From IMG/VR virus record IMGVR_UViG_3300027861_000160, positions 1 to 27,523 of that record: a stretch of DNA of 27,523 nucleotides; one strand, given 5' to 3'. The stretch comes from a virus. Positions 13,818 through 14,812 of the stretch are shown in pieces. The position numbers and the translations under genes were made by a program. Each line of letters begins with the position of its first letter. Position 1 is the first letter of the stretch. The notes under the pieces are model-generated. The model was not told where the DNA came from and made no database searches. It saw only the letters and a list, made by a program, of their open reading frames with translations.

Positions 13818-13897
13818 GGTCCCTTGGTGTATACGGCCTAGCACAGCATCCACATGAGGATGATGGAAGACAGGTTCAATTCCTGCAGGGGCCCCCA
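13818..13897 (+). tRNA. tRNA-like gene with an abnormal anticodon loop (CAT in the loop)
   Basis: A 7-bp acceptor stem GGTCCCT/AGGGGCC (one G-U), encoded CCA, a D arm GTGT/GCAC with GG in the loop and a T arm CAGG-TTCAATT-CCTG are present. The anticodon stem CATCC/GGATG is perfect, but its loop is only six bases (ACATGA) and lacks T33. If CAT is the anticodon this is a Met or Ile2-type tRNA. The variable region is about seven bases. It may be a divergent, decayed or alternative-function tRNA. Confidence 0.55.
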
Positions 13898-14060: not shown

Positions 14061-14462
14061 GGGCGCGACATGACTTCGACTGTTCAGTGGAAATCATAGT
14101 CACATGCCGAGGATGATAGTTGGCCTCGTTAATCGTCTATCAAACAAATAATTGCTAAACCAATTATGTTCCCAGGCCAGCAAATGCTGGCTGTAGCTTA
14201 GTCACAGATTGAGCTAACGTTTTCGCCATATTGAACGGTTGTCAAATTGGTAAGGGGTCGAGCACGACCTAGGGCTATTAACGCTCATGAATAGGGCGAA
14301 AGTCGTAGTGATACGCAGCACCCTCACAGTATGGTGTATAATATCTGTCTGTTGCTGATAGTGAGACAAACCACATTGGCGTAAAATTAGGTTGCAAAAG
14401 CATGTATAATGACGTGATGGAAGTTTTGCAGGACCCGGGTTTGATCCCCGGCGCGTCCACCA
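14061..14462 (+). ncRNA. ssrA: Phage-encoded tmRNA (transfer-messenger RNA), one-piece form
   Basis: The RNA rescues stalled ribosomes by acting as tRNA-Ala and then as a short mRNA. The 5' end GGGCGCG pairs with CGCGTCC (14452-14458) over seven bases with G3-U70, the alanine identity pair; A73 and CCA follow. Conserved tmRNA segments are present: GACTTCGAC (14072), CATGCCGAGG (14103), TTGGCCTCGT (14120) and AAGCATGTA (14398). PK1 can form (CGAGG/CCTCG and TGATAG/CTATCA), and the P2 helix pairs ATCA, GTCA and ACATGC with GCATGT, TGAC and TGAT. The tag frame starts at GCT (14154) and reads AKPIMFPGQQMLAVA to TAG (14199-14201). The T loop is TTTGATC, with T where C56 is usual. 402 nt, longer than the 363-nt E. 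coli RNA. Confidence 0.9.
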
Positions 14463-14538
14463 AGACCAACGATCTCGGTTAAATTCCGAGCAAGGGACTA
14501 AAAAACCCTGTAGCTCAATGTGAGAGCATTGGTCACGT
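14463..14538 (+). tRNA. Candidate circularly permuted tRNA (3' half before 5' half)
   Basis: This 76-nt stretch lies exactly between the tmRNA CCA and the first base of tRNA-Thr. It begins with the 3' half of an anticodon stem (ACCAA), then a 4-nt variable region, a perfect T arm CTCGG-TTAAATT-CCGAG and CAAGGGA. After ACTAAAA come CCCTG, the tRNA-typical TAGCTC...GAGC D arm, and TTGGT, the exact partner of ACCAA (6 bp with the next C-G). CCCTG pairs with CAAGGG with one bulged base. Joining the two ends would give a 7-nt loop CACGTAG, which lacks T33. It could instead be two fused tRNA remnants or a structured spacer. The D loop lacks GG and no CCA is encoded. Confidence 0.45.
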
Positions 14539-14614
14539 GCTTTCTTAGCTCAGATGGTAGAGCGTTTCCTTTGTAAGGAAAATGTCCACGGTTCGATCCC
14601 GTGAGAAAGCCCCA
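14539..14614 (+). tRNA. tRNA-Thr (TGT)
   Basis: A perfect cloverleaf: acceptor GCTTTCT/AGAAAGC, D arm GCTC-AGATGGTA-GAGC, anticodon stem TTTCC/GGAAA with loop TTTGTAA (anticodon TGT, reading ACA), T arm CACGG-TTCGATC-CCGTG, discriminator C and encoded CCA. Confidence 0.97.
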
Positions 14615-14723: not shown

Positions 14724-14812
14724 GGTCGAAGTCGCTGAGAAATTTTTAATGCTGTTCAGGACTGGCTTAACCGCCAACTTCGACCCTGAGCGGCATTTTT
14801 TATGGAGTAATT
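14724..14812 (+). promoter_or_regulatory. Structured leader of the antirepressor gene, possible attenuator
   Basis: GGTCGAAGT (14724-14732) and ACTTCGACC (14777-14785) are perfect 9-bp complements with a 44-base loop. A competing small stem CCGC/GCGG is followed by CATTTTTTA, which would be terminator-like. The ribosome binding site TGGAGTAATTACC comes after it. Mutually exclusive folding is possible but only inferred. Confidence 0.45.

Follow-up and report, generated by a model that had tools for sequence, protein, structure and literature searches.

The window analysed here is the whole of a 27.5-kb linear virus record, which carries genes for a terminase, a DnaB helicase, a YqaJ recombinase and an antirepressor. 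A plus-strand RNA cluster lies at a strand switch and consists of an odd tRNA, a tRNA-His, a tmRNA, a 76-nt element and a tRNA-Thr(UGU). The tmRNA (14061–14462, +), with the tag AKPIMFPGQQMLAVA and an encoded CCA, is recognised by both ARAGORN and Rfam (RF00023, 99.5 bits over the full model), as is the tRNA-Thr (14539–14614, +; Rfam tRNA, 65.7 bits). Because both programs place the end of the tmRNA at 14462 and the start of the tRNA-Thr at 14539, the spacer is exactly 76 nt, and the element (14463–14538, +), delineated by sequence, folds and covariance-model matches, fills it without a spare base, as an initial annotation of the sequence had claimed. The odd tRNA (13818–13897, +; ‘tRNA-???’ in ARAGORN) has a perfect 7-bp acceptor stem and a CCA, but an anticodon loop of 6 nt (CAUCC-ACAUGA-GGAUG). 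Beyond the cluster, an inverted repeat formed by GGTCGAAGT (14724–14732) and ACTTCGACC (14777–14785) lies directly upstream of the AntA/KilAC antirepressor gene.

Read from 5′ to 3′, the element is made up of GACCAA, a 4-nt CGAU linker, a T-arm, an acceptor-like hairpin, UA, a D-arm, a single A and UUGGUC. Sequence and fold agree with the annotation that the 3′ half of a tRNA here precedes the 5′ half and that the ends are complementary over six bases: GACCAA (14464–14469, +), equivalent to the anticodon-stem positions 39–43 plus one, forms six Watson–Crick pairs with UUGGUC (14529–14534, +) in the computed fold, with pair probabilities of 0.81–1.0 and overhangs of 1 nt and 4 nt. The T-arm (14474–14490, +; CUCGG-UUAAAUU-CCGAG) has 5 Watson–Crick pairs and a 7-nt loop from which C56 and G57 are missing, while the D-arm (14513–14527, +; GCUC-AAUGUGA-GAGC) has 4 such pairs and a 7-nt loop with no GG. 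Between them, the acceptor-like hairpin (14491–14510, +; CAAGGG-ACUAAAAAA-CCCUG) pairs over 5 bp with one bulged A, the single bulge already described for the acceptor strands. A structure descriptor finds this T-arm/hairpin/D-arm unit only once in the whole window. Joining the two ends would give the 7-nt loop originally predicted if the closing helix is taken as 5 bp, but a loop of 5 nt if it is taken as 6 bp. The departures from a working tRNA that had been listed, namely the lack of T33, of a D-loop GG and of an encoded CCA, are all present in the sequence, and the T-loop UUAAAUU, which had escaped mention, also deviates from TTCRANN.

The fold energy of the element corresponds to a z-score of −3.0, with 2 of 200 shuffled sequences folding equally well. 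The tRNA-like fold (−20.8 kcal/mol) competes with a minimum-energy fold (−22.0 kcal/mol) in which the D- and T-arms are partly cross-paired, and the computed arm probabilities (0.53 for the T-arm and 0.38 for the D-arm) fall within what genuine YrlA modules of viruses show. All 15 Watson–Crick pairs are retained in the closing, T and D helices, whereas the normally invariant loop positions 33, 56, 57 and one of 18/19 have been lost, and with the D-loop GG and the T-loop C56 both partners of the tRNA elbow are absent. The retention of the helices alongside the loss of the decoding and elbow bases suggests that a tRNA-like fold has been kept rather than tRNA function, which fits selection on the fold and not on decoding. 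Two further readings were rejected: an intrinsic terminator, as there is no T-run downstream, and an attP-type tRNA 3′ fragment, which leaves the complementary 5′ half downstream unexplained.

A permissive Rfam scan of the element picked out the bacterial Y RNA YrlA (RF02553), with a score of 17.9 bits that lies among those of ordinary tandem-tRNA junctions (10–25 bits); the RF02553 cut-off is 69, and the best YrlA matches in Ro-carrying phages, mostly at 30–52, also fall below it. Two dedicated covariance models were also used, one of 33 viral YrlA modules and one of artificially permuted tRNAs, and in both the element is the best match of the window, over its full length (32.2 and 29 bits, respectively). 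In the YrlA model, tandem-tRNA junctions have a median of about 20 bits, with two of them scoring higher than the element; in the permuted-tRNA model the element ranks 22nd, behind YrlAs and several tandem-tRNA junctions. The covariance search proposed in the initial annotation thus singles out the element within the window, but does not separate it cleanly from tandem-tRNA junctions.

YrlA itself is described as a mimic of tRNA: it has D, T and acceptor arms, and Rsr/Ro60 binds to its basal stem (PMC8394870, which also cites the Salmonella YrlA structure, PDB 6CU1). Its tRNA-like domain has been proposed to compete for an anticodon nuclease (PMC7790460). Y RNAs were described in mycobacteriophages by Chen et al. 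2014, as cited in PMC12282133, and our phage examples come from Gordonia, Mycobacterium and Streptomyces phages. In Gordonia phage Boopy, the cluster runs from a Ro protein gene through tRNA-Asn, tmRNA and further tRNAs to a YrlA (L031:2480-2579; MK894436.1), where GenBank annotates an overlapping tRNA-Leu. Among ten other Ro-carrying phages, nine have YrlA matches of 30–47 bits. A strict pattern retrieved 56 viral contigs, most of which share the T-arm/hairpin/D-arm module. Many phages thus have tRNA-like arms in permuted order, for the most part in modules of the Y-RNA type. Our literature search found no phage permuted tRNA, in keeping with the remark in the annotation that no such case was established, but that remark had overlooked the Y RNAs, in which the same order of arms is common among viruses.

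A TROVE (Ro60) gene was detected in 15 of 36 tested viral records with such modules. Several large viral contigs (G041, G043 with 371 kb, G054, G056 and G065) carry YrlA-type modules with no detectable TROVE/Ro60 gene, hinting at Y-like RNAs that are independent of Ro. In the window and its five related contigs, all linear and perhaps fragments, no TROVE gene was found either. Elsewhere, T-arm/hairpin/D-arm modules are clustered or chained with tRNA-like units near tRNAs and sometimes a tmRNA (L077, L079, L084, L090, L109 and L117). Compact tmRNA matches of about 80 nt and 52–65 bits, which span both ends of the Rfam model and leave no room for a tag-coding domain, were seen in three contigs that also hold permuted tRNA-like modules (L077:2616-2695 (−), G037:C1:2306-2384 and G038:C1:41294-41373).

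The element is retained in one close relative, L004, with a single D-stem substitution that changes GCUC to GCUU and keeps the pair as G-U. Divergence between the window and this relative is 0 in the tRNA-Thr, 0.25% in the tmRNA and 9.2% in the adjacent ORF; the value for the element, 1.3%, differs without statistical meaning from the 3.0% of the adjacent noncoding DNA. Such low divergence hints at a possible constraint on the RNA cluster, although a single change is no proof where the element itself is concerned. As for the compensatory changes that had been suggested as a check, the two known copies are nearly identical and hold no real covariation, their one difference being the pair-preserving substitution. 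Exact-pattern searches of viral and bacterial collections matched only the L004 contig, and DNA searches of phages and plasmids gave nothing beyond tRNA-Thr-like and short D-arm matches. A tmRNA-based pattern search found no relatives besides L004 and G001, and TerL-based relatives, which are only distant in bacteria, yielded no additional tmRNA among as many as 80 loci and 27 records. In the more distant G001, whose tmRNA is related (75% identity), a tRNA-Met follows 3 bases after the tmRNA and the element is absent. The tRNA content varies between close relatives; in L004, an ordinary tRNA-Met takes the place of the odd tRNA and tRNA-His of the window. In the distant relative, GACCU..AGGUC and GCAACU..AGUUGC interleave after the tRNA-Met (L024:861-980) and may form a pseudoknot ahead of the portal gene.

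The element falls under neither the definition of a permuted tRNA nor that of a YrlA, and is most likely not a working rearranged tRNA but a YrlA-like tRNA look-alike or what remains of one. We tentatively favour, at somewhat less than even odds, a tRNA-like module with the T-arm before the D-arm, which has the architecture of the YrlA domain without the Ro-binding stem and would act as a putative tRNA mimic or decoy. The element would be transcribed within a precursor of the tmRNA and tRNA-Thr. Since it abuts both mature neighbours exactly, their normal maturation could release it: RNase P cleavage at the 5′ end of tRNA-Thr and 3′ maturation of the tmRNA would free a linear RNA some 76 nt long, with the 6-bp helix closing it. 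This RNA would carry no amino acid; it may instead mimic a tRNA and, for example, act as a decoy for nucleases or tRNA-handling enzymes or compete for them. Boopy offers a precedent for a YrlA inside a tmRNA–tRNA cluster, and viral YrlA modules likewise have a short acceptor-like hairpin and a D-loop of 7 nt. Against it stand a YrlA score within the background of tRNA junctions, the lack of a Y stem, the failure to find a TROVE gene in the window or its relatives, the absence of the element from G001 and the competing D/T fold.

Nearly as likely is that the element is dead, left over from a tRNA array that was rearranged or from what was once a Y RNA, with a complementarity that is inherited and not maintained. 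In its tRNA-array form this is the origin proposed in the initial annotation, by tandem duplication and loss of the outer halves. Such a relic would account for the degenerate loops and acceptor stem, the missing CCA, the existence of just two near-identical copies and the absence from a distant relative, and it suits a cluster with other odd tRNAs nearby (e.g., that with the 6-nt anticodon loop) and a tRNA content that shifts among close relatives. Less readily explained are 15 pairs in three helices with no mismatch despite the loss of several invariant loop positions. Nor is a parent gene visible, since the rejoined tRNA, compared with 560 phage tRNAs, matches none of them clearly better than random tRNAs match one another (best identity 70%, the 95th percentile of random tRNA pairs), and no candidate parent stands out.

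It is improbable that the element is simply a structured spacer, which would hold the tmRNA and tRNA-Thr apart, offer them in the right form to RNase P and the 3′-processing enzymes and have no role once released. The gap is indeed filled to the base, and the closing helix insulates the element from both neighbours; however, in G001 the tRNA-Met follows the tmRNA with no such spacer, and tandem tRNAs elsewhere do without one.

Smaller still is the chance that the 3′ and 5′ halves are remnants of two unrelated tRNAs and complementary by coincidence. All tRNAs resemble one another in their D-arm and T-arm sequences, and about 2 Mb of other viral DNA, a set in which tRNA arrays and Y RNAs are over-represented, yielded 97 distinct T-then-D units, of which 3, including the L004 homologue, are closed by 6 Watson–Crick pairs. 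On the other hand, when halves of unrelated phage tRNAs were paired (22,350 pairings), a fully Watson–Crick anticodon stem arose in 0.58%, and only 0.15% combined it with an acceptor duplex whose stability equals or exceeds that of the element. The halves of the element therefore belong together, through common origin or selection.

The initial annotation had read the element as a circularly permuted tRNA, and the order and pairing on which it drew are borne out. With the halves put back in normal order and flanks added artificially, ARAGORN reports a tRNA-Thr(CGU) for 4 of 20 boundary choices, and U8, A14, A21, A26, U54, U55, A58 and the Levitt-pair positions (A15, U48) are in place. However, U33 is replaced by A33, and G18G19, C56 and a CCA are absent. 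A tRNA acceptor stem has 7 bp, whereas that of the element has 5, with a bulged A and unpaired outermost bases. No bulge-helix-bulge (BHB) motif was seen by eye at the junction: the flanks GCGCGU/ACGUGC, which are part of the mature tmRNA and tRNA-Thr, could extend the pairing beyond the closing helix only by leaving a one-sided bulge of 7 nt. Neither a splicing endonuclease nor RtcB nor an Rnl2-type ligase was found in the 27.5-kb fragment or its relatives. It is accordingly very improbable that the element is a working permuted tRNA-Thr(CGU) which, once freed from the tmRNA–tRNA precursor, a ligase would close into a circle before a further cut opened it at the acceptor, the maturation route of red and green algae; to our knowledge, it would be the first permuted tRNA from a virus or bacterium.

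If expressed, the element would be a minimal Y-RNA-type tRNA mimic that lacks the Ro stem and is produced free through the processing of its neighbours. If dead, it would exemplify how phage tRNA arrays give rise to permuted halves, and caution that permuted order by itself is no proof of a permuted tRNA.

The permuted tmRNA, a two-piece RNA (RF04321), is another bacterial RNA with a permuted tRNA-like form; its match here (21 bits against a cut-off of 47) is explained by the ordinary tmRNA 3′ domain upstream. With the type II permuted tRNA genes of Cyanidioschyzon, prasinophytes and Bigelowiella (PMC3978253), the element shares a leading 3′ half, complementary anticodon-stem ends and a short intervening sequence. 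Unlike the element, in which none of these is intact, those genes have G18G19, U33, U54U55C56, a full acceptor stem and a BHB junction, and the working genes of C. merolae keep G18G19, U33, U54U55C56 and the BHB junction (PMC3978253). From YrlA (RF02553) the element differs in its stronger, 6-bp closing helix and its 9-nt hairpin loop. It also has no UUCRANN T-loop or D-loop GG, no Ro60 gene that could be found in the window or five related contigs, no CGGTTA-type motif of the kind found upstream of many viral YrlAs, and, its flanks being the mature ends of the tmRNA and tRNA-Thr, no long basal Y stem with a Ro-binding motif. The likeness lies in the architecture of the tRNA-like domain itself, which in both cases runs from a closing stem through the T-arm, a short acceptor-like hairpin, U-A and the D-arm back to the closing stem.
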